Positions 23,198 through 34,492 of a stretch of DNA of 64,000 nucleotides are shown here, in pieces. Numbering within the stretch: position 1 is the first letter of the stretch; the number at the start of each line of letters is the position of its first letter. Both the position numbers and the translations under genes were made by a program. Source of the stretch: Shewanella sediminis HAW-EB3 (GTDB lineage: Bacteria > Pseudomonadota > Gammaproteobacteria > Enterobacterales > Shewanellaceae); contig NC_009831.1 of NCBI RefSeq assembly GCF_000018025.1, positions 1,054,001 to 1,118,000 of the forward strand. The letters run 5' to 3'. Below the pieces are notes generated by a model. That model had not been told where the DNA came from and did no database searches. It saw nothing but the letters and a program-made list of their open reading frames with translations.

Positions 23198-24106
23198 TCA
23201 GGTTTCAGCGCTTTGTTTGTGGGTACCAAACCGCTCTTTCACCATGTTAAGCATAGCTTGGGCTGCGAATGAGAGCTGCTTTCCTTTTTGCCAGTATAGG
23301 GATAGTTCCCAATACAGCTCGGAGCTTTTCAATGGCACATGGACAACACCGCTTACGCTATGTCGTTCGGCTATCAGCTTGGGAAGCACCATAGTGCCGG
23401 CTCCGGCAGCCACCAAAGCGATACCAAAATCGGGGTGACTCACACGGGTGATATTTTTTGGGGTGAAGCCCGCTTTCTCACAGGCGTCGAATACCTGACC
23501 ATAAAGGGCAAAATCATGTTCGAACATGATCTGGGCTATGTCGGATATTTGGCAAAGCTGAAGGGAGGCTTCGTGAGCCAGGAGATTATTCTTGGGCAGG
23601 ACGACGACCATAGGGTCTTCGTGGATTCTGATCCCGTCGAACTCTTTGTCGAATGAGATTATCCCCGTTGCCAGCTCAATCTCTCCTTTTTGAAGCGCGA
23701 GGGTTTGCTCGACTCCTCCCCGTACGAACAGATTCATCTCAATCTTAGGGTAACTGTCTTTGAACTTGGCTATCACGGGAGCAAAAAGCTCGGCGCTGCC
23801 AAGCGGAGCCAGACCAAGCCTTAGCTCTCCCGAGGTTAAATCCCGTTGAGAGGCCAGCTCATTGAGCATCCTATGTCTTCCAGCTAAGAGCTCGATACCG
23901 TGGCGATAGACCACTTCACCTGCGGATGTCAGCTTGAGTTGGGTGCCGCGTTTACCTCGCTCGATCAAGGTTAAGTCCAACTCATGCTCGAGCCCAATGA
24001 TCGCCTTAGAGAGTGCGGGTTGAGTGATATGGATTTTTTCAGAGGCTTTTGCAAAGCCGCCAGAATCGACGATGTCGATGAAGTAGCCAATCACTCTGAG
24101 ATCCAT
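23198..24106 (-). CDS. LysR-family regulator divergent from cidAB
   Basis: 302 residues. The helix-turn-helix is at the N-terminus (GFAKASEKIHITQPALSKAIIGLEHEL) and the effector-binding domain follows. It diverges from cidA with a 106-base gap, the classic arrangement of CidR with cidAB. In other bacteria CidR responds to acetate or pyruvate overflow; this role is inferred from position. Confidence 0.85.
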   Translation of the reverse strand: MDLRVIGYFIDIVDSGGFAKASEKIHITQPALSKAIIGLEHELDLTLIERGKRGTQLKLTSAGEVVYRHGIELLAGRHRMLNELASQRDLTSGELRLGLAPLGSAELFAPVIAKFKDSYPKIEMNLFVRGGVEQTLALQKGEIELATGIISFDKEFDGIRIHEDPMVVVLPKNNLLAHEASLQLCQISDIAQIMFEHDFALYGQVFDACEKAGFTPKNITRVSHPDFGIALVAAGAGTMVLPKLIAERHSVSGVVHVPLKSSELYWELSLYWQKGKQLSFAAQAMLNMVKERFGTHKQSAET

Positions 24107-24212: not shown

Positions 24213-24647
24213 TTGTTGACAGCTGAACGTACTAAAAAGTGTTATGGGGTTCTTCAATTACTGATCCAGATCGGACTATTTTGTCTGTTAGCCTGGGGGA
24301 TGGAGCAGGTCTCGGTTTATTTGGAACTTCCTGTTCCTGGCAGCGTGTTGGGGCTCGCTATCCTGTTATTGTTAATGGGGTTAAAGCTGGTACCTGAGAA
24401 GTCGGTCAAACTTGGCGCGGGATGGTTAACGGGTGAGTTACTGCTATTTTTCATTCCTCCTGTTATCTCAATTATTAAGTATGAAAGCCTATTCGAGCAA
24501 TACTCGGCTCCTTTGATGCTCACATTAGTGATTGGCAGTGTCTGTGTATTACTCGGTACCGGATTTGTGGTCGATAGGGTCTTCAGGTTTGAAACTAAGA
24601 TGAACAGTAAACGCCTTAATGCAGCAAAAGCGATAGAGGTAATATAG
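24213..24647 (+). CDS. cidA: CidA/LrgA family holin-like membrane protein
   Basis: 144 residues with four membrane segments. LPVPGSVLGLAILLLLMGLKLVP is the CidA/LrgA signature. The family has been described as holin-like and linked to murein hydrolase export, and more recently to pyruvate or other weak-acid transport. A TTG start at 24213 (or 24216) is used here; no better start is visible. The stop codon directly abuts the ATG of cidB. Confidence 0.85.
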   Translation: MLTAERTKKCYGVLQLLIQIGLFCLLAWGMEQVSVYLELPVPGSVLGLAILLLLMGLKLVPEKSVKLGAGWLTGELLLFFIPPVISIIKYESLFEQYSAPLMLTLVIGSVCVLLGTGFVVDRVFRFETKMNSKRLNAAKAIEVI

Positions 24648-25337
24648 ATGTCCCAGTCAATGTTAGCGGCGATCAGCTTGGTCTTTACACTCTCTTGCTA
24701 CTTTTTGATTAAACAGCTGTACCTGAAAAAGAGGGTATGGTGGTTAGCCCCCATCTTGATTGTACCTGTGGTTATTGTTCTGTTTGTGGTTAGTCTGAAA
24801 ATCCCTCTGCCTGCCTATTTTGAATATACTCATTGGCTGGTGGCCCTGTTGGCTCCTGCGACCATCGCATTCTCTGTGCCTATATATAGAGAACGAAAAT
24901 TGATTTTCAGCTATCCGTTAACGATTGGCATTGGCGTGGTGACAGGTCTGTTGTTAGGGCTCCTCTCATCATGGGGATTGATGCAGATATTTTCACTGCC
25001 GCCAGAGTTGTCCCAAAGTACCTTAGTGCGCTCGGTGTCGACGCCGTTTGCCATGGAAGCCACGTCTGCATTTGGCGGGGTACCAGAGTTGACCGCCATG
25101 TTGGTACTGCTCACGGGGATTATCGGTATGTTGGTATGCGAGCCTTTGTTTAAGCTGGCGAAAATAAATTCACCTTTAGCTATAGGCGCAGCACTCGGAG
25201 CCGCGGCACATGGCGCGGGAGCCGCAAAAGCCAGTGAGTTTGGTAAAGAGGAGGGGGTGGTTGCCAGTCTGACTATGATCTTTACCGGTATCGCTATGGT
25301 GCTTGGTGCTCCCTTCTTTTCGATTTTCCTGGTCTGA
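24648..25337 (+). CDS. cidB: CidB/LrgB family membrane protein
   Basis: 229 residues and very hydrophobic. LVRSVSTPFAMEATSAFGG and AIGAALGAAAHGAGAAKA are characteristic LrgB blocks. It is translated together with cidA (zero spacing). The pair lies next to the lactate/porin cluster, consistent with a link to overflow metabolites, but this is inference. Confidence 0.87.
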   Translation: MSQSMLAAISLVFTLSCYFLIKQLYLKKRVWWLAPILIVPVVIVLFVVSLKIPLPAYFEYTHWLVALLAPATIAFSVPIYRERKLIFSYPLTIGIGVVTGLLLGLLSSWGLMQIFSLPPELSQSTLVRSVSTPFAMEATSAFGGVPELTAMLVLLTGIIGMLVCEPLFKLAKINSPLAIGAALGAAAHGAGAAKASEFGKEEGVVASLTMIFTGIAMVLGAPFFSIFLV

Positions 25338-25449: not shown

Positions 25450-25463
25450 TTGATCTGCATCAT
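25450..25463. promoter_or_regulatory. FNR/EtrA-like site upstream of the porin
   Basis: TTGATCTGCATCAT fits TTGAT-N4-ATCAA with one mismatch. The surrounding AATCGTTATAAACTTGATCT is nearly identical to the sequence before lctP (29577-29590). Confidence 0.5.
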
Positions 25464-25606
25464 ATTGGTACTCGCCTGAAATTATCATTCGTAACCAGGT
25501 CTGACACATGGGGTTAACCGTTTTGTAACTGCATGTATTTAAATGTTAAAAATAATATCCCTCCAATATATTTTCTGAAAAATCGTAAGGTTGAAGCCGA
25601 CCAAAT

Positions 25607-25735
25607 CGGTATTTCTACGTGCAAACCCTTAGCAGCCTTAGGTGCAAACACCGATAACCCCACCCTCCATAAACCCATATGGTTAGCCGCGGATAAACAA
25701 TAAGTTTGCTGGCACGGATCTTTGGTGACCGTTTC
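25607..25735 (+). promoter_or_regulatory. Conserved leader shared with lctP, copy A
   Basis: A block starting at CGGTATTTCTACGTG, through CAAACCCTTAG, CCTTAGGTGCAAACAC, CATATGGTTAGCC and GATAAACAATAAGTTTGC to GGTGACCG, is repeated with few changes at 29732-29860 upstream of the lactate permease. It holds direct repeats of GTGCAAAC and a later GTTTGC able to pair with them. It lies between the FNR-like site and the start codon, so it is probably transcribed. It matches no riboswitch class that I recognise. Confidence 0.6.
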
Positions 25736-25781
25736 ATGCAAGCAACAACCAAAAAATTAACAGATCCCAAAAGGCAGCTTG

Positions 25782-26852
25782 ATGAACAGAATAACTAAAA
25801 CAGCGTTAGTGGTAGCTACATTTTTCTCAGCACCTTCTTTCGCCGGCTACGAAGTCCAAATTGATGACACCTCGAAGTTAACTTTCGGTGGCTACTTCAA
25901 AGCCGACTTGCGTAATGTCAGCGGCGACCAAGCTTACCGAGACTTCTGGATTGGTTCCAGTACAGGCGTGCCAGATACCAATAAAACCAGCATTCAGGCC
26001 AGAGAGTCGCGCTTCAATGTTAAGTACTCCAATGGCGAGTTAGCGGGATTTCTCGAGTATGATTTCTATGGTAGTGACGGTAACGCATTAGTTTCTAACT
26101 CATACGAGCCGCGTATGCGTCATGCTTTTATCTCTTACAAGAACTGGAAAGTCGGCCAGACTTGGTCAACCTTTATGCCACTGGCCTCTATCGCCGAGGC
26201 GCTGGACTTTGGTGGAGCGCACGTAGGTCAGGTGTTCATTCGTCAAGGCCAGATACGTTACACCAATGGCGGGCTGGAACTGGCGCTGGAAAACCCGGCG
26301 AACGCTACCGATGACAATCAGAGTATCCCCGATGTAGTGGCTCGTTACACTTTCAAAGGCGATTTTGGTCAGGTGGCCGTTGCCGCGCTGGCTCGCACCT
26401 TTGATGACAACGGTGTGGCTGGTCATGCCGATGGCACTCAGTTGGCTTACAGCATAAGCGGTAAAATCAATACCTTTGGTAAAGATGATTTCCGTTTCGC
26501 CTATAACGCGGGCGCTGCGGGTCGTTATATTTCACCAGGTCACAACGCCGGCGACAAGGTTAATGCCGATGGCAGTGGTGATCTGCTGACAACGCAAGCT
26601 TACACCGTTGCCTATCGCCATTTTTGGACTGACGATTTGCGCTCTACCGTTTACTACGGCCACTCTGAAGTAGAAGATTTCAATGGTGTGAGTGCTGACT
26701 CTGATCGTAACCACTACGGCATCAACCTGATCCAGCAGCTTAGCAAGCAGTTAAGCGTGGGCGTTGAATTCGGTAACTATGATGCTGATATATCAGCCAC
26801 TGAAACTGCGGATTCTGATTACATCCAGCTTTCGGCCAAGTACGTACTTTAA
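25782..26852 (+). CDS. Outer-membrane porin, DcaP-like
   Basis: 356 residues after a clear signal peptide (MNRITKTALVVATFFSAPSFA). SKLTFGGYFKADLR at the mature N-terminus and a barrel of alternating strands ending in SAKYVL (hydrophobic C-terminal residue) fit DcaP-type trimeric porins, which pass carboxylates and similar anions. I use the ATG at 25782 with AAGGCAG upstream. The gene shares its leader with lctP, so import of lactate or another organic acid is a reasonable guess. Confidence 0.75.
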   Translation: MNRITKTALVVATFFSAPSFAGYEVQIDDTSKLTFGGYFKADLRNVSGDQAYRDFWIGSSTGVPDTNKTSIQARESRFNVKYSNGELAGFLEYDFYGSDGNALVSNSYEPRMRHAFISYKNWKVGQTWSTFMPLASIAEALDFGGAHVGQVFIRQGQIRYTNGGLELALENPANATDDNQSIPDVVARYTFKGDFGQVAVAALARTFDDNGVAGHADGTQLAYSISGKINTFGKDDFRFAYNAGAAGRYISPGHNAGDKVNADGSGDLLTTQAYTVAYRHFWTDDLRSTVYYGHSEVEDFNGVSADSDRNHYGINLIQQLSKQLSVGVEFGNYDADISATETADSDYIQLSAKYVL

Positions 26853-27055
26853 TAGCGGGCGGCATAATCTAATTTATGTCGCTGGTTTTCCCTGTGAAAG
26901 TCCGCGCACTTGCCCCTATCAATAAGGCAAGCAGGGCAGGAAACAAAGTACTTAAACTGGCTGTCATCCATCAGCCCCCAAGAGAATAACTTCCGAAAGG
27001 TCATCCAGTGGGATGGTTGGCCTTGTTCCTCTGACCATAAATGAGGATAAAACAT
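26849..27055 (-). CDS. Possible small Cys-containing protein
   Basis: A 68-residue ORF fills the long gap between the porin stop and its terminator, on the opposite strand. It has CPACLIDRGKC, a possible metal site, and several Trp. No clear Shine-Dalgarno sequence is visible and I recognise no family; it may be chance. If it is not real, this stretch is an unusually long porin 3' UTR. Confidence 0.25.
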   Translation of the reverse strand: MFYPHLWSEEQGQPSHWMTFRKLFSWGLMDDSQFKYFVSCPACLIDRGKCADFHRENQRHKLDYAARY

Positions 27056-27098
27056 CCCCTACTTAACTCCCACAGCATGGCAGGTTCGCCATGTTTTC

Positions 27099-27131
27099 CC
27101 CGAAGCATGACCCCGCTTCGGGTATTTTTTT
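27099..27131 (+). terminator. Porin terminator
   Basis: CCCGAAGC, an eight-base loop and GCTTCGGG, then TA and seven T. It lies about 245 bases after the porin stop. Confidence 0.75.
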
Positions 27132-27169
27132 CAATAGAGGTTGGCCATGAGAACAGGGCGTGAACCGTG

Positions 27170-27790
27170 TTACCTGTCTAAGCCATGATCTATGGCATAA
27201 CGCACCAGGCCGGCCGTACAGTCTATAGCCAGTTTCTGTTTGATATTACGCTTATGGGTCTCGACCGTGCGTACACTGACATTCATCTCCTGCGCAATGC
27301 GTTTATTATTCATCCCCAGCGATATCAAGCGTAAAACTAACTGTTCCCGCTGGGTTACCAGAACTTGTTTGCCACTGGCGAGCTCCTGTGACAGGGTGTC
27401 TATGACATCTGCACTGAAATAGCGCTTACCGGCGGCAACTTTTTTAATCGCTTCAATGAGTTCCTTACCGGGTACATCCTTGAGAATATAGCCATCGGCA
27501 CCGTGGCGCATTGCCGCCACTATATATTCCTTGTTGTCATGCATGCTCAACATCACCACCTTGCATGACATCTCCTGCTCCTTAATCAGCTCAAGCAGAT
27601 ACATGCCATCCATTTGTGGCATATTAATATCCATCAACACCAGATCGATCTGTGTATCCTTTAGGATCTCCAGAGCCTGGAGGCCATTGTCTGCTTCAGC
27701 TTGTACCTCTATGTCGCAGTCAAGGTCCAGACGATGCCGTAACCCTTCCCGAAACAGGGGATGATCGTCCACCAAAAGTACGCGGATCAT
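27170..27790 (-). CDS. NarL/LuxR-type response regulator
   Basis: 206 residues. The receiver domain has acidic DD at 8-9, the phospho-acceptor Asp at about 54 (LVLMDINMPQ) and a conserved Lys in LKDVPG. The C-terminal LuxR helix-turn-helix is LISLGMNNKRIAQEMNVSVRTVETHKRNI. The start overlaps the kinase stop by four bases, so it is the cognate partner. The likely targets are the porin and lctP that flank the pair. Confidence 0.9.
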   Translation of the reverse strand: MIRVLLVDDHPLFREGLRHRLDLDCDIEVQAEADNGLQALEILKDTQIDLVLMDINMPQMDGMYLLELIKEQEMSCKVVMLSMHDNKEYIVAAMRHGADGYILKDVPGKELIEAIKKVAAGKRYFSADVIDTLSQELASGKQVLVTQREQLVLRLISLGMNNKRIAQEMNVSVRTVETHKRNIKQKLAIDCTAGLVRYAIDHGLDR

Positions 27791-29196
27791 AATGCCACCT
27801 CTGTTGTGCTATCGGCTTGATAACGCAGCTCGCTTTGGGGAATACGCGCTATCAACGTCACTCCTTTGCCGATTGCTGATTCCACCCTAAGCTCACCATT
27901 ATAAAAACTCAGTCTTTCCTTCATATTTCTCAGGCCTATTCCCTCAAAGGGGGTCGATTTTTTCTCATAGCATTCATAGTTAAAGCCCTGGCCATCATCA
28001 TGAACTTCCAGGGTCAGCCATCCCGGGGTGAGGGTCTGCGAAATAAGCACATTTTTTGCCCCCGAGTGACGTTCAATATTGGTCAGTGATTCCTGCACTA
28101 TACGATAAAGTGCGCAACTGAGTTCGGTTGACAAAAGCTTGCGCACCGATAGTAGTTGCACCTTTACTTTGATACCGGTACGCAAGGAAAATTCACTGCC
28201 CAACTCTTTTAGTGCCGCCCCCAGCCCGTAGTCTGCGAGGATGCTAGGGTGTAGTTGGTGCGAGATATTACGGATATCGAGCATGATCTGCCGCGTCATA
28301 GTGATTGCCTTCTCCAGCTCCGGCCCGGAGTCTCCGCCGTATTCTTTTTTCAACTGTGCTGTTTCCATAGCAAAAAGGGCCGCGGCAATAGTTTGGCTAA
28401 CTCCATCGTGCAGCTCTCTGGAAACCCGCTTACATTCCTCTTCCTGAGTCTGATAAATTCGTTCGTTGAGTGTTCTTAGTTTAGCATTTGCCAGCCGTTT
28501 CTCACCCACACGCATAAAGATGCCGCCGATAAATACGGCGCTGACCGCTAAGGTACCGATCACCAGAGTCATGATGGAGGTGTTGCGGATATGATGACTC
28601 ATAGAGGTGCTTAACAGTGCCGCCTCCTCATCGATATCATCAATATAGACGCCGGTACCAAACATCCACTCCCACTGCCCCAATACCTCGGCGTAGGCAA
28701 GTTTTTGTCCCAGTTGACCGTCATTGGAGGGCTGGTTAAACAGGTAGGTGAGGTAACCACCGCCTTTTCTCGCTCCTGAGATTAACTCCTGGATAAAGGG
28801 GACCCCGTTGTCATCGGTTAGGTCCAGCCAGTTTTTGCCGACCCGCCACTCCTGATCGGGTAAGACCAGGCTTTTACCATTCAGATCGTAGGCGAAGAAG
28901 TAACCGTTTTTACCGAAGCGCATATCGGACAGCATAGACTTAACATCTTGCTGGGTTTGTTGAGGCGCTTGGCTGTCATTGTTCTGATTTTGCTTGAAAT
29001 GCTGGATAGCCACGTTGGCGATCGCCAGATAATTTTTAAGCTCCTCTTTGCGGTGATCAATAATACTCTGCCGATAAACGTCGACCACCTGCTGGGAGAG
29101 CTCCCGGTACTGCATTTGAGTCACAAACAGCACCAGTATCAGAGATAGAATGAGTGGAAGTACGGTGATTAGCTGTAACTTATGGTTAATATTCAT
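27787..29196 (-). CDS. Cache-domain histidine kinase, candidate carboxylate sensor
   Basis: 469 residues. The first membrane helix (about 8-26) and second (about 206-228) enclose a single-Cache (Cache_2) periplasmic domain with the typical RFGKNGYFFAYDLNGKSLVLP block. Domains of this type often bind short carboxylates such as lactate, pyruvate or propionate. The kinase part is of the HisKA_3 class, with His263 in SRELHDGVSQT and HATPase boxes near NIERHSGAKN and GQGFN. It lies between the porin and lactate permease genes; a lactate-sensing role is inferred. Confidence 0.85.
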   Translation of the reverse strand: MNINHKLQLITVLPLILSLILVLFVTQMQYRELSQQVVDVYRQSIIDHRKEELKNYLAIANVAIQHFKQNQNNDSQAPQQTQQDVKSMLSDMRFGKNGYFFAYDLNGKSLVLPDQEWRVGKNWLDLTDDNGVPFIQELISGARKGGGYLTYLFNQPSNDGQLGQKLAYAEVLGQWEWMFGTGVYIDDIDEEAALLSTSMSHHIRNTSIMTLVIGTLAVSAVFIGGIFMRVGEKRLANAKLRTLNERIYQTQEEECKRVSRELHDGVSQTIAAALFAMETAQLKKEYGGDSGPELEKAITMTRQIMLDIRNISHQLHPSILADYGLGAALKELGSEFSLRTGIKVKVQLLSVRKLLSTELSCALYRIVQESLTNIERHSGAKNVLISQTLTPGWLTLEVHDDGQGFNYECYEKKSTPFEGIGLRNMKERLSFYNGELRVESAIGKGVTLIARIPQSELRYQADSTTEVAL

Positions 29197-29288
29197 CGCT
29201 GATTACTGCTCCTCTATTCTCTATATTAGGACCTTTGCAAAACTGGGAGGTTATATTAACAGTTAATCAACCACCGAGTAGCAACAAA

Positions 29289-29305
29289 TACCCATATATA
29301 GGGGG
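29289..29305. promoter_or_regulatory. Dyad upstream of the two-component operon
   Basis: TACCCATATATAGGGGG, about 95 bases before the kinase ATG. The CCC-N7-GGG symmetry and the TACCCAT heptamer resemble NarL-family operators. AGGGGTA also occurs at 29668-29674 in the lctP leader. Confidence 0.35.
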
Positions 29306-29435
29306 ATTAAATCAAAGACAGGGTAAATAACTCAACTTGGCCACGGCACCTTAATCAGGCGCTCACAGTCATAAATATTTAAAATATGTAGTCGGACTCA
29401 TCAAAAATCACTAAAAAGGAGAGGGTAATCAAAAA

Positions 29436-29549
29436 ATGTGGAAGATAGTCTGGCTCTGGTCCCACTTTTTGCCCATATGGGATGATGTTAATTTTTCGCT
29501 TCTGGGTAATTTTGTGAACTCTCGACCGCAATTCGACACTCATAAATAA
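29436..29549 (+). CDS. Possible 37-residue Trp-rich ORF
   Basis: ATG 14 bases after AAGGAG; the product starts MWKIVWLWSHFLPIWDDV, with four Trp in the first 15 residues, and ends before the FNR-like site of lctP. It could be a small membrane peptide, a leader peptide or chance. The rest of 29197-29951 is regulatory sequence for the kinase and lctP. Confidence 0.2.
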   Translation: MWKIVWLWSHFLPIWDDVNFSLLGNFVNSRPQFDTHK

Positions 29550-29576
29550 CACACTTCACGGTTAATCGTTACAAAG

Positions 29577-29590
29577 TTGATCTGAATCAT
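29577..29590. promoter_or_regulatory. FNR/EtrA-like site upstream of lctP
   Basis: TTGATCTGAATCAT, one mismatch from TTGAT-N4-ATCAA, in the same context (AATCGTTACAAAGTTGATCT) as the porin site at 25450. Confidence 0.5.
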
Positions 29591-29731
29591 ATTGCCGACC
29601 CTCTAGGGTTACGCTCTGCAACTTGCTATTCACACCTTAGTTGTTTCTTTTCAAGTTATTGTATTGTAGGGGTAAAACTCTAGTTGCTCGGTGCGCTTTC
29701 CTCAAAAGCGCAAGCCTGAACTTGGGGGGAA

Positions 29732-29860
29732 CGGTACTTCTACGTGTAAACCCTTAGTGGCCTTAGGTGCAAACACGGATAAAAAATGCCCTCGCGAAGC
29801 CATATGATTAGCCTCAGATAAACAAGTAAGTTTGCCGGGCATCTGATCTTAGGTCACCGC
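29732..29860 (+). promoter_or_regulatory. Conserved leader shared with the porin, copy B
   Basis: CGGTACTTCTACGTG, AAACCCTTAG, CCTTAGGTGCAAACAC, CATATGATTAGCC, GATAAACAAGTAAGTTTGC and GGTCACCG follow in the same order and spacing as copy A (25607-25735), while the sequence between this block and the FNR-like site is not conserved. It ends about 90 bases before the lctP start. Confidence 0.6.
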
Positions 29861-29951
29861 TCAAGGCAAACGACAATAAAAAACGAGTCAACAAATCCGT
29901 TAGTGTCTGGAAATAACGCTAAGTAACAAAACAGGATAATAAGAGGCAAGC

Positions 29952-31595
29952 ATGACCTTAATTCAACTACTCGCAAGTTTAACGCCGGTGATCAGCGTAA
30001 TGCTATTTTTAGTATTGCTGAAGATGCCCGCATCACGGGCGATGCCCATCTCTGCAATTTTAACCGGCCTGGCGGCCGTGTTTGTCTGGCAGATGGATAC
30101 GACCTTTTTGGCGGCATCCGTCGTCGAAGGATTACTTGCCGCACTGACACCATTGAGTATCATCTTCGGTGCCGTGTTCTTGCTTAATACCCTTAAGTAT
30201 TCAGGCGCGATGGATACCATTCGCGCAGGTTTTACTAATATCAGTGCCGATGCCCGCGTTCAGGTCATCATTATCTGTTGGTTGTTTGGCTCATTTATCG
30301 AAGGTAGTGCCGGCTTTGGTACACCGGCTGCTATCGGCGCTCCTCTGCTGGTACTGCTGGGTATTCCTCCCATTGCCGCAGCGGTTGTTGCCCTGATTGC
30401 CGACTCAGCCTCTGTATCATTCGGTGCCATCGGTCTGCCTGTACTCTTTGGTATGGAGCAGGGACTGACTTCTGGTGGAGTTAACATGGCCGCCGAACAG
30501 ATTGCTCAGCATGGTGGCAACTTTGCCGATTATGCTCAGTTCATCGCTATGCATATGATCACCATTGATATGGTGACCGGCACGCTTATCCCGCTGGTCA
30601 TGGTGTCCTTACTGACCGGCTTCTTCGGTCGTAACAAGTCATTCGCCGAAGGCTTTGCCATCTGGAAGTTTGCCCTGTTTGCGGGTCTGGCATTTACCGT
30701 ACCGGCCTGGATCATCAACTTCGTTGCCGGCCCCGAGTTCCCATCGGTTATCGGTGCATTGGTTGGTATGGCTATCGTTATCCCGGTTGCCAAGAAAGGC
30801 TACCTGTTACCTGAGACTCCCTGGAACGATTTTGCCGAAGCACCATCCTATAGAGCTGGCAAGGTTGAAGGTAAAACACAGTTCTCTCAGCTTGCCGCCT
30901 GGACTCCCTATATCATCATGGCGGCCTTGTTGGTGCTATCTCGTGTTATTGGCCCGCTAAAATCATGGTTGCTGAGTTTCAACGTCAAGTGGACCGGCCT
31001 GCTGGGTACCGAGTTGGGTGCCGGATTCAAGACCCTGTATGCACCAGGCGCCTTCTTCGTCGTCGTGTGTATCTTGGGTTTCTTCCTGTTCAGAATGAAT
31101 AAGAAAGCCATTAAAGAGTCTGTTACGGTATCGTGCCGCTCTATGGTTCCAACCATCATTTCGCTGGGCGCTTCTGTGCCTATGGTTAAGATCTTCCTGA
31201 ACTCGGGCACCAACGGTTCCGGGCTGGCTTCTATGCCAGTCGCCCTAGCCGATACCCTGGCTGGCAGTATGGGCGCGGTATGGTCCTGGGTTGCACCTGT
31301 CGTCGGTATCTTCGGTGCCTTCCTGTCAGGCAGTGCCACCTTCTCCAACATGATGTTCTCCGGCCTGCAGTATAGCGTCGCCGACAGCATTGGCATGAAC
31401 CAAGCTATGGTACTGGCACTACAGGGAATTGGCGCTAACGCCGGTAACATGATGTGTGTGATGAACGTCGTTGCCGCCGCTACCGTAGTAGGTATGGCGG
31501 GAAGAGAATCAGAAATTATCCGTAAGACTATGCCGGTAGCCCTGGCCTACGCCATGATTGCGGGCACCATAGCCTTCCTCTGGGGTGGTTTCTAA
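29952..31595 (+). CDS. lctP: L-lactate permease
   Basis: 547 residues with about 12-14 membrane segments. [22 protein letters not shown] is the signature of the LctP/LldP family. It takes up lactate (and often glycolate) by proton symport. The ATG follows AAGAGGCAAGC. dld-II comes 77 bases downstream with no terminator between, so the two are probably one transcript. The long upstream region with an FNR-like site and a leader shared with the porin suggests redox- and substrate-dependent control. Confidence 0.93.
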
Positions 31596-31672
31596 AAAGT
31601 AATACTCAATCAGTCAGAGCCACACTCCGGCTTTGACTGCTCTTAATCATAGCGAATAAAGAGATGTGTCAA

Positions 31673-34492
31673 ATGTCGATAAATTATAAAGCAGTAGTCA
31701 GTGATCTACGTAAGCAACTGGGTGACAAACCTGTGACGGATGAGTATGTTCGTCGCTTCGCCTGGTCAACCGACGCCAGTTACTTCAGAATTGTTCCAGA
31801 AGTCGTTGTTCATGCCGAGAACATGGATGAAGTTAAGCGTACTCTAGCCGTTGCCCGTGAGCATAATGCACCTGTGACTTTCCGCGCGGCAGGCACCAGC
31901 CTGGCCGGTCAGGCCATTGGTGAAGGTATTTTGCTTATTCTGGGCCATGATGGTTTCAGAAAGATTGAAGTCAGCGACGATGCCAGGCAGATCACCCTTG
32001 GCTCTGCCGTCATAGGCTCCGATGCAAACGCTGTGTTAGCGCCGCTAAACCGTAAAATTGGTCCGGATCCGGCGACGATTGCCTCGGCCATGGTTGGTGG
32101 AATTGTGGCCAACAATGCCTCGGGCATGTGCTGTGGTACCGCGCAAAACAGTTACCAGACCATAGCGTCGGCCAAGTTGCTGTTCGCCGATGGCACCGAG
32201 CTTGATACGGGTTGTAAAAAATCTAAGGTCGCATTCGCCAAGTCCCATCCGAAAATGCTTGAGGAAGTGTATCAACTGGCTCATATTACGCGCCACAATC
32301 TTGTGCTTGCCGACAGAATTCGTAAGAAATTTTCCATCAAAAACACCACAGGTTACGGCATCAATGCCTTAGTCGATTTCAGCGATCCCTTTGATATCAT
32401 CAATCATCTTATGGTTGGCATGGAAGGCACTCTGGCCTTTATCAACGAGGTGACCTACCACACGGTCAATGAAGCCAAATTTAAGGCTTCGGCCCTGGCC
32501 GTTTTCCACAACATGGAAGATGCGGCCCGCTCTATCCCATTGATCAATGGCGAAAGTGTCGCGGCAGCCGAACTACTCGACTGGCCATCCATCAAGGCCG
32601 TTACCGGCAAACCCGGGATGCCTGACTGGTTATCTGAGTTGCCACCTCAGTCAGCTATCCTGTTGATCGAATCCCGTGCCGACGATGCAGATATATTGGA
32701 TGTTTACACCCAGGATGTGATCACCAAGCTCGAAGGATTTGATTTTCTACGTCCGATCAACTTTACCAGCGATGCTGCGGTATACGGCGAGTACTGGGCC
32801 ATGCGCAAGGGTCTGTTCCCAATCGTTGCGGGTGAGCGTCCCAAAGGCACGTCGGTTATTATCGAAGATGTGGCGTTCGAGCTTGAACACCTGGCTACCG
32901 CCGCGAGTGATATTACTGCGCTAATGCACAAATTCGGTTATCCCGAAGGTTGCATCTATGGCCACGCGTTAGCAGGTAACTTCCACTTTATCATCACGCC
33001 AACTTTCTCGACTCAGGGTGATATCGACAATTTCCATGCCTTTATGGACGAAATTGCCAAGATGGTAATTAACAAGTACGACGGCTCGATGAAAGCCGAG
33101 CATGGTACCGGTCGCGCGGTCGCGCCTTATGTTGAGATGGAGTGGGGGGAGGATGCTTATACTCTGATGAAGAGCATCAAGCAGTTATTTGATCCCCAGG
33201 GTATCCTGAACCCGGGTGTCATCTTAAACGATGATCCCAAAATCCACGTTAAAGACATTAAGCCCTGCCCGGTAGTCGATGACTTTGTCGATAAGTGTCT
33301 TGAGTGTGGCTTCTGTGAGAAGACCTGCCCGACCTCGGCGCTTAACTTCACCCCTCGTCAGCGTATTGCCACATTGCGTGAGATTGCTCGTCTGGAGCAA
33401 AGTGGTGATCAACAGGCCGCCGATGAAATGCGCGCTTCCGCCAAATATGATGTTATCGATACCTGTGCGGCATGCCAGCTGTGTACCATAGCCTGTCCTG
33501 TCGATAATAAGATGGGTCAGCTGGTGCGTAAACTCAGAACCCCATCCATCACTAGTGGTCAGCAAAAGTTCCTCGATTTTCAGGCGAATCATTTCGGCGC
33601 GGTAAATGGCGTGATCAGTACCGGTTTCGATATGTTGGGTGTGATCCATAAGATCACCGGTGACGGCATAACAGGAGCCATGATGAAGGCGGGCCGTATG
33701 GTGAGCAGCGAAGTGCCGTACTGGAATCCGGATTTTCCTAAAGGTGGCAAACTTCCTAAGGTTTCTGCAGCTAAGCCCGGACAGGAAACGGTGGTCTACT
33801 TCCCAGCTTGTGGTGGGCGTACCTTCGGGCCTACACCTGTCGATACCGATAAGCGACCGCTGCCGGAAGTCGTGGTGACGCTACTGGAGCGAGCAGGATA
33901 CAACGTGATCACCCCACAGAAGACGCGCGATCTTTGCTGTGGCCAGATGTGGGAATCTAAGGGAGACTTTAAGAATGCCGATGCGAAACGTCTCGAATTG
34001 ATCCAGGCCGTTTCTGCCATGACACAAGGCGGAAAGTTTCCGGTGATCATCGATGCGCTGTCATGTACTAAGCGAACCTTAGGCGGCGATGCAGCGCTGA
34101 CTGAGAAGGTTGAGATATTGGATCTGGTTGAGTTTATGCATGACAAATTGTTGCCTAAACTGACTATTAAAAAGAAGTCTCACGCCGCACTGCATCTTGG
34201 TTGTAGCGCCAGAACCATGAAGGTTGAACCTAAAATGACCGCAATCGCGGATGCCTGTTGTAACCAGGTGATCCGTCCGGCGGGGATCGAATGTTGTGGT
34301 TATGCGGGTGAGAAGGGGCTCTATAAGCCAGAGATCAATGCCAGCGCACTGCGCAACATTAAGAAGTTGATCCCGGTCGATGTGAAAGAGGGGTATTACG
34401 CTAACCGTATGTGTGAAGTCGGCCTGACTCAACATAGCGGCGTCCCTTATCGTCATCTGGCCTACCTGCTCGAAGAGTGTACCCGTGGCTAA
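31673..34492 (+). CDS. FAD- and Fe-S-containing D-lactate dehydrogenase (Dld-II)
   Basis: 939 residues from the ATG at 31673, which has AAAGAG at the better spacing; an ATG nine bases earlier is possible. The N-terminal half is a PCMH-type FAD domain (TFRAAGTSLAGQAIGEG, GGIVANNASGMCCGT) with an FAD-oxidase C-terminal cap (YGHALAGNFHF). Two 4Fe-4S motifs follow near residues 541 (CLECGFCEKTCP) and 597 (CAACQLCTIACP), then CCG domains (CCGQMW, ECCGYAGEKG). The layout equals the respiratory D-lactate dehydrogenase of Shewanella, which passes electrons to quinone. The L-lactate genes lldEFG that I remember following it in S. oneidensis are absent here. Confidence 0.88.
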   Translation: MSINYKAVVSDLRKQLGDKPVTDEYVRRFAWSTDASYFRIVPEVVVHAENMDEVKRTLAVAREHNAPVTFRAAGTSLAGQAIGEGILLILGHDGFRKIEVSDDARQITLGSAVIGSDANAVLAPLNRKIGPDPATIASAMVGGIVANNASGMCCGTAQNSYQTIASAKLLFADGTELDTGCKKSKVAFAKSHPKMLEEVYQLAHITRHNLVLADRIRKKFSIKNTTGYGINALVDFSDPFDIINHLMVGMEGTLAFINEVTYHTVNEAKFKASALAVFHNMEDAARSIPLINGESVAAAELLDWPSIKAVTGKPGMPDWLSELPPQSAILLIESRADDADILDVYTQDVITKLEGFDFLRPINFTSDAAVYGEYWAMRKGLFPIVAGERPKGTSVIIEDVAFELEHLATAASDITALMHKFGYPEGCIYGHALAGNFHFIITPTFSTQGDIDNFHAFMDEIAKMVINKYDGSMKAEHGTGRAVAPYVEMEWGEDAYTLMKSIKQLFDPQGILNPGVILNDDPKIHVKDIKPCPVVDDFVDKCLECGFCEKTCPTSALNFTPRQRIATLREIARLEQSGDQQAADEMRASAKYDVIDTCAACQLCTIACPVDNKMGQLVRKLRTPSITSGQQKFLDFQANHFGAVNGVISTGFDMLGVIHKITGDGITGAMMKAGRMVSSEVPYWNPDFPKGGKLPKVSAAKPGQETVVYFPACGGRTFGPTPVDTDKRPLPEVVVTLLERAGYNVITPQKTRDLCCGQMWESKGDFKNADAKRLELIQAVSAMTQGGKFPVIIDALSCTKRTLGGDAALTEKVEILDLVEFMHDKLLPKLTIKKKSHAALHLGCSARTMKVEPKMTAIADACCNQVIRPAGIECCGYAGEKGLYKPEINASALRNIKKLIPVDVKEGYYANRMCEVGLTQHSGVPYRHLAYLLEECTRG

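Follow-up and report, generated by a model that had tools for sequence, protein, structure and literature searches.

Two-component control of a pyruvate transporter has been described for RpuS/RpuR of Sinorhizobium fredii, where the mctP promoter carries an imperfect direct repeat from -80 to -43 and a -10-like box, with no -35 element found (PMC9100948). CrbS/CrbR, known from Gammaproteobacteria, acts in acetate utilisation through a LuxR-family regulator and the ACTU motif, an imperfect inverted repeat that spans -52 to -36 (PMC5715377). We compare with these systems a locus of Shewanella sediminis HAW-EB3 lying in a stretch of 64,000 nucleotides (contig NC_009831.1, positions 1,054,001 to 1,118,000; hereafter the window, in whose numbering coordinates are given), where two copies of a sequence block precede a porin gene and a lactate permease gene, and the genes for a sensor kinase and a response regulator sit between the two on the minus strand. 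With a probability of roughly three in four, the blocks are paired operators and promoters switched on by this neighbouring two-component system, together with a leader hairpin, rather than a new riboswitch.

The proposed arrangement resembles RpuS/RpuR in the two-component control of a pyruvate transporter, mctP transcription being predicted to begin some 100 bp ahead of the operon's first gene (PMC9100948), and differs in that RpuS is an SLC5/STAC kinase whereas the kinase here is of the sCache_2 type, and in an 18-bp dyad with a second site, duplicated at porin and permease. With CrbR it shares a LuxR-family regulator and an inverted repeat, but the half-sites of listed ACTU sites, for example TACGACTAAAGTCTAAA, are of another sequence, and the kinase and targets are different (PMC5715377). 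StyS/StyR at PstyA offers a response-regulator site near -40 with a weaker upstream site, bound cooperatively by StyR; unlike the present system, it serves styrene catabolism, and StyR both activates and represses, together with IHF (PMC2442086). The lldP-dld operon of S. oneidensis MR-1 likewise joins a permease to a D-lactate dehydrogenase and has a long leader (192 nt in lldP), but is CRP-activated, with lldP expression equal on D- and L-lactate, and the accessible part of that report names no two-component system for it (PMC5432575). A literature search, with most subscription papers outside its reach, returned no two-component system of this kind at lactate/pyruvate loci of the tripartite ATP-independent periplasmic (TRAP) or LctP type. 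The present proposal would name an operator for a lactate/pyruvate-uptake sensor system in Shewanella and related families, tie an outer-membrane porin and a permease into one regulon, and replace a riboswitch guess by a testable protein-DNA hypothesis; the dyad would also be a usable motif for annotating TRAP-transporter promoters.

The duplicated block and the neighbouring sensor system

The locus comprises the following features.

25782 to 26852, plus strand: DcaP-like porin (PF19577 domain match)
27170 to 27790, minus strand: NarL/LuxR-type response regulator, the proposed activator (domain annotation)
27787 to 29196, minus strand: sCache_2 sensor histidine kinase (domain annotation and ortholog search)
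29952 to 31595, plus strand: LctP-family lactate permease (L-lactate permease; PF02652 domain match)
31664 to 34492, plus strand: FAD/FeS D-lactate dehydrogenase-like protein downstream of lctP (name inferred from domains)
25450 to 25463, plus strand: FNR/CRP-like site TTGATCTGCATCAT, 5' of the porin gene (conserved among copies)
25534 to 25539, plus strand: TGTATT, possible -10 of an upstream promoter P1, porin copy (exact in most copies)
25615 to 25632, plus strand: operator site 1 CTACGTGCAAACCCTTAG, porin copy (copy alignment and dyad tests)
25638 to 25655, plus strand: operator site 2 TTAGGTGCAAACACCGAT, porin copy, 23 bp downstream of site 1 (copy alignment)
25676 to 25681, plus strand: -10-like CATATG, porin copy, at positions 62-67 from the start of site 1; predicted start near 25688
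25704 to 25743, plus strand: 5' leader RNA hairpin P3, porin copy (covariation and single-sequence folds)
29577 to 29590, plus strand: FNR/CRP-like site TTGATCTGAATCAT, 5' of lctP (conserved among copies)
29660 to 29665, plus strand: TGTATT, possible -10 of P1, lctP copy (exact in most copies)
29740 to 29757, plus strand: operator site 1 CTACGTGTAAACCCTTAG, lctP copy (copy alignment and dyad tests)
29763 to 29780, plus strand: operator site 2 TTAGGTGCAAACACGGAT, lctP copy (copy alignment)
29801 to 29806, plus strand: -10-like CATATG, lctP copy (promoter comparison); predicted start near 29813
29830 to 29871, plus strand: 5' leader RNA hairpin P3, lctP copy (covariation and single-sequence folds)

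An earlier reading of the letters alone (the sequence-only reading) had called the blocks at 25607-25735 and 29732-29860 nearly identical; the duplication is real, although that wording is a little strong for 79% identity over query bases 1-125 of 129 (E 7e-22). The two are the sole copies in the 5,517,674-bp genome, six other matches spanning only 14-22 bases (E 0.6-7.5). The motifs previously picked out within the block, namely direct repeats of GTGCAAAC, a GTTTGC and a CATATG, are all present, as are the FNR-like 14-mers upstream of each copy.

A comparison with other Shewanella genomes and a covariance model had been proposed as the check on that reading, and yielded 24 strong copies. Of 27 BLAST matches within the genus, spread over 15 of 129 Shewanella genomes, three were short (L022, L023, L035; G and L numbers are our handles for genomes and loci) and were discarded as chance. 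A covariance model built from a seed of 14 of the 24 copies recovered the same 24 at 86 bits or more, in 13 of the 129 genomes; the other 14 of its 38 rows (at most 27.2 bits, E 0.007 to 0.9) were set aside as chance. When 295 genomes across the order were searched with the model, strong matches were obtained in G000 and G034 only, and two further genomes, outside Shewanella, gave weak ones (E 0.036 and 0.097). An exact degenerate search of a contig collection, from which the window's own genome was possibly excluded, found 11 stretches, every one from Shewanella (S. canadensis, S. atlantica, S. kaireitica, S. abyssi, S. gelidimarina, Shewanella sp. c952, an uncultured isolate and a metagenome-assembled genome).

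The block travels with the kinase: a kinase ortholog at 62% identity or more occurs in exactly the same 13 of 129 genomes. G117 retains the permease copy of the block, with no ortholog of the window porin in the genus search or in the fetched locus; the 16 kb fetched from G033 hold the porin copy, a regulator and two kinases, with no LctP match. L121 (5318-8612) shows a kinase duplication: one regulator is accompanied there by two kinase genes in tandem, whose products are about 71% and 62% identical to the window kinase.

A probable operator dyad beside kinase-regulator pairs

In the 24-copy alignment the block begins sharply at CTACG and is strongly conserved across about 120 nt. Its 5' two thirds are best read as DNA, comprising an 18-bp dyad, a degenerate second site and the -10-like CATATG. 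Site 1 has the form CTAnGTr-N4-yACnTAG, and the weaker site 2 lies 23 bp downstream; the GTGCAAAC repeats are parts of this dyad operator, which in other families is again found next to this type of system, with no other part of the block. Position 4 of the arm may be A, C or G, the opposite arm changing to match (CTAAGTG/CACTTAG, CTACGTG/TACGTAG, CTAGGTA/TACCTAG), and in the porin copy of G033 the arms form a perfect dyad, CTAAGTGTAAACACTTAG. Between porin and permease copies the operator core is 87% identical (44 of 132 possible pairs compared). Response regulators of the NarL/LuxR type bind inverted repeats of about 17-20 bp in their target promoters; here an 18-bp inverted repeat lies in the candidate target promoters and occurs with a related regulator.

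Five other Shewanella genomes carry a diverged form of the system, with the kinase 37-39% identical over the longest match and the regulator 48-50%. In each of the five intergenic regions the first 41 bases of the block have a homolog, and none of the remainder was seen; at the four loci that pass at one mismatch, the operator core lies 101 bp before the gene for the TRAP binding protein. Binding protein, porin, kinase and regulator are present at all five (L122-L126), which suggests that the partnership of porin and regulator outlives a change of transporter. At L123 (6145-10194) the TRAP transporter operon ends in a DcaP-like porin and is divergent from the kinase-regulator pair.

Across the order, related kinases (E at most 1e-60) were found in 35 of the 295 genomes, many of them accompanied by a related regulator and this TRAP type, and the dyad appears in promoters of such loci, for example as CTACGTGGATCTACGTAG, CTAGGTATAAATACCTAG and CTACGTAGATATACGTAG. 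The step from site 1 to a GTG-N6-CGGAT element is equal in the lctP block and in G217, G136, G181, G161 and G246. Two TRAP promoters from another family (L156 5500-5790 and L158 7150-7430) carry GTGATCTGTGT, similar to a CRP half-site, on the upstream side of the operator.

The link between dyad and two-component system was examined with 64 genes for pyruvate/lactate-type binding proteins (at least 50% identity to the L123 protein), a gene being counted as linked when kinase and regulator lay within 6.5 kb, and the dyad being accepted with up to one mismatch within 350 bp upstream. The dyad stood before 23 of the 28 linked genes (27 loci) and before none of the 36 unlinked genes, which were taken from 70 binding-protein matches and none of which is beside a related kinase at the same E threshold; among these, L239 has only about 113 bp of upstream sequence, and contig ends truncate L237 and L238, whose linkage status is therefore less certain. 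The dyad pattern had been derived from the Shewanella copies and ten other-family loci, and this material supplies 15 of the linked genes (12 with the dyad). For the linked genes outside it, from 20 later-fetched places chosen from 40 kinase matches, the dyad was present at 11 of 13 versus 0 of 36, a one-sided Fisher probability of 2.7e-9, which takes no account of shared ancestry and therefore overstates the significance. The 279 kb of later-fetched loci contained 11 dyad matches against 2.8 expected from base shuffles, all 11 in binding-protein promoters. Comparison across loci shows both the dyad and its tie to the system.

A conserved hairpin in the predicted leader

The sequence-only reading had taken the block for a structured leader, and for part of it this holds, because the hairpin at 25704-25743 and 29830-29871 covaries; no riboswitch-like fold built on the GTGCAAAC repeats emerged. 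By comparison of copies, the 3' third of the block is RNA, a conserved hairpin (P3) in the predicted leader, in which GTTTGCC pairs with GGCAAAC around inner stems to give 17 pairs. Changes on both sides were seen in 12 of the 17 pairs (5.5 in shuffles) and in 25 cells (7.7 in shuffles, standard deviation 2.3), and 86% of cells pair as against 16-42% after sliding; these figures are favoured by an alignment fitted to that structure. Single-sequence folds drew P3 in most of the 24 copies, weakly or not at all in L032 and L034 and in altered form in L027 and L033, and de novo folding with RNAalifold recovered most of the outer P3 on the 14-row seed. Shuffle-controlled folding of single blocks gave no signal (z -0.15 and 0.69).

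The hairpin probably protects the mRNA or sets its translation. It might also be a second, post-transcriptional control through which an RNA-binding protein, a small RNA or a ligand tunes the porin and permease mRNAs together, a suggestion that we hold to be rather doubtful; if it were true, one lactate signal would act both at the promoter and, via the hairpin, on the message. A short leader peptide starting in CATATG (ATG ATT AGC ... TAA) was rejected when the alignment was viewed by eye, the ATG being absent in L021 and L032-L034 and the frame shifted in L013-L014.

Proposed regulation and its alternatives

We reason that the sCache_2 kinase would sense an external monocarboxylate, most likely lactate or pyruvate, and would phosphorylate the NarL-type regulator, which in turn would bind the putative tandem operator formed by sites 1 and 2 and recruit RNA polymerase to a promoter with CATATG as its -10 and no clear -35 element. 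Counted from the first base of site 1, CATATG begins at 62 in each of the window copies, the place expected for a -10 element; TAACTT or TAGCTT occurs at 63 in G125, G041 and G020, and TAACAT at 63 or 64 in G217, G136, G181, G161 and G246. The mRNAs would then begin close to 25688 and 29813, which would place the centres of sites 1 and 2 at about -65 and -42 and the hairpin about 16 nt from the 5' end; the literature search found no published transcription start map for the window species or for S. piezotolerans. With both promoters under the same regulator, porin and permease would form one uptake regulon, and the comparisons support the earlier suggestion of a single lactate regulon with the neighbouring response regulator as its candidate.

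The choice of ligand follows three gene contexts that point to lactate or pyruvate: LctP with the D-lactate dehydrogenase-like gene, the TRAP binding protein, and an alpha-hydroxy-acid dehydrogenase-like gene in G133. The best sequence matches of the binding protein in the PDB are 4pet and 5cm6, which we take to be calcium-pyruvate complexes; its further matches there include keto-acid and lactate binders by name, and one named for sorbitol/mannitol.

Several observations weigh against this proposal. The main exception is G133 (L151 5235-8580), whose regulator and kinase are 76% and 58% identical to those of the window and lie downstream of an FMN-dependent alpha-hydroxy-acid dehydrogenase-like gene (read from sequence): the locus has no dyad at up to one mismatch, the genome has no 37-bp core at three mismatches, and no operator was seen before the dehydrogenase-like gene. 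Five of the 28 linked genes lack the dyad, two of them (L122, L175) having a two-mismatch form, and it is absent from all seven later-fetched loci at which a more distant kinase-regulator pair has a different TRAP type next to it, or no TRAP transporter, which indicates that it follows one branch of systems and not every relative of the pair. The helix sequences of the regulators, when listed, were not informative. About 200 palindromes with scrambled arms, searched in the same 279 kb, gave a mean of 2.65 matches but a maximum of 14 against 11 for the dyad; the case for the dyad rests on location. As to the promoter, a consensus scan found no plus-strand sigma-70 promoter in either control region, and Vibrio-like promoters (family f21, the label being a guess) lack the -10 spacing when viewed by eye. 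RNAalifold run de novo on all 24 rows drew only part of P3, at -3.2 kcal/mol. Finally, the operator model leaves unexplained a rigid distance to the FNR-like site.

That site, TTGATNNNNATCA, lies upstream of 23 of the 24 copies, centred 156-160 bp before the block, the exception being L021. FNR recognises TTGAT-N4-ATCAA, of whose ten defined bases TTGATCTGCATCAT and TTGATCTGAATCAT each match nine, FNR and CRP being indistinguishable here. The DNA between site and block (25464-25614 and 29591-29739 in the window) had been described as not conserved, which is right for its sequence, porin copies sharing only about 50% identity with permease copies (44 of 132 possible pairs), but overlooks a near-fixed length: all 23 copies that have the site keep it at 149-153 bp. 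This fixed spacing suggests a geometric constraint, and the upstream element may serve a promoter of its own or work jointly with the operator; the length from block to start codon is more variable, about 161-181 in porin and 208-222 in permease copies.

One alternative, compatible with the operator model, is a stacked arrangement in which an FNR/CRP-activated promoter P1 would provide basal expression and a long leader, while the operator within that leader would drive a second promoter, P2, and might roadblock P1. The FNR-like site and TGTATT could form a CRP/FNR class I promoter with the site near -91: TGTATT is exact in 19 of the 24 copies, where it follows the FNR centre by 76-78 bp and precedes the block by 80-82 bp, and CRP activates lldP-dld in S. 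oneidensis (PMC5432575). In the five diverged TRAP promoters, however, the 260 bp preceding the operator contain no TTGATNNNNATCA, L021 has none either, and here too the consensus scan gave no plus-strand promoter. We regard the stacked arrangement as possible, at well below even odds.

Much less probable is that the whole block is a cis-regulatory RNA, a riboswitch-like leader transcribed from an upstream FNR/CRP-type promoter with the GTGCAAAC repeats taking part in its fold. The conservation over some 120 nt, the covarying hairpin at the 3' end, a 5' helix drawn by RNAalifold on 14 rows, the fit of TGTATT to a promoter at fixed distance from the FNR-like site, and the S. oneidensis lldP start 192 bp before the ATG (PMC5432575) would all suit such a leader. 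But TRAP promoters carry the core with no other part of the block, and there it is tied to the presence of the two-component system. The pairing of the GTGCAAAC repeats with GTTTGC that the sequence-only reading had put forward was rejected as a switch for both repeats, with 0 compensatory changes and no advantage over shuffles; the partner of GTTTGC is the downstream GGCAAAC, within P3. Site 1 drawn as a hairpin leaves one pair unpaired in 14 of 14 rows and another in 10 of 14. When the site-1 helix was counted too, the 14-row seed had 4 pairs and 7 cells double-changed, with two of five measures within reach of the shuffles; no covarying structure was found in the conserved core, its folds other than the repeat/GTTTGC pairings being gauged only by this seed count and RNAalifold. 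In agreement with the earlier remark that no known riboswitch class matches, no Rfam family reached its gathering score in the window; with the cutoff relaxed to E 1, three loci gave two matches only, both below the gathering score and outside the blocks, one of them (chance) in the two loci that hold blocks.

Least probable of all is that a different regulator, for instance the LysR-type protein at 23198-24106, acts on the operator, with the two-component link reflecting shared synteny only; inheritance of the cluster as a unit could by itself yield the overlap of 13 genomes, and G133 has the kinase-regulator pair without the operator, but the dyad accompanies the pair at other-family TRAP loci (L152-L160, L161-L180), where no match to the window LysR protein was reported, and is missing from unlinked TRAP genes.

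Relatives of LrgAB are pyruvate facilitators in other organisms. In the window, homologs of lrgA and lrgB (24213-25337), with a divergent LysR gene, lie directly 5' of the porin gene, so that this entire region may be an island for monocarboxylate transport.

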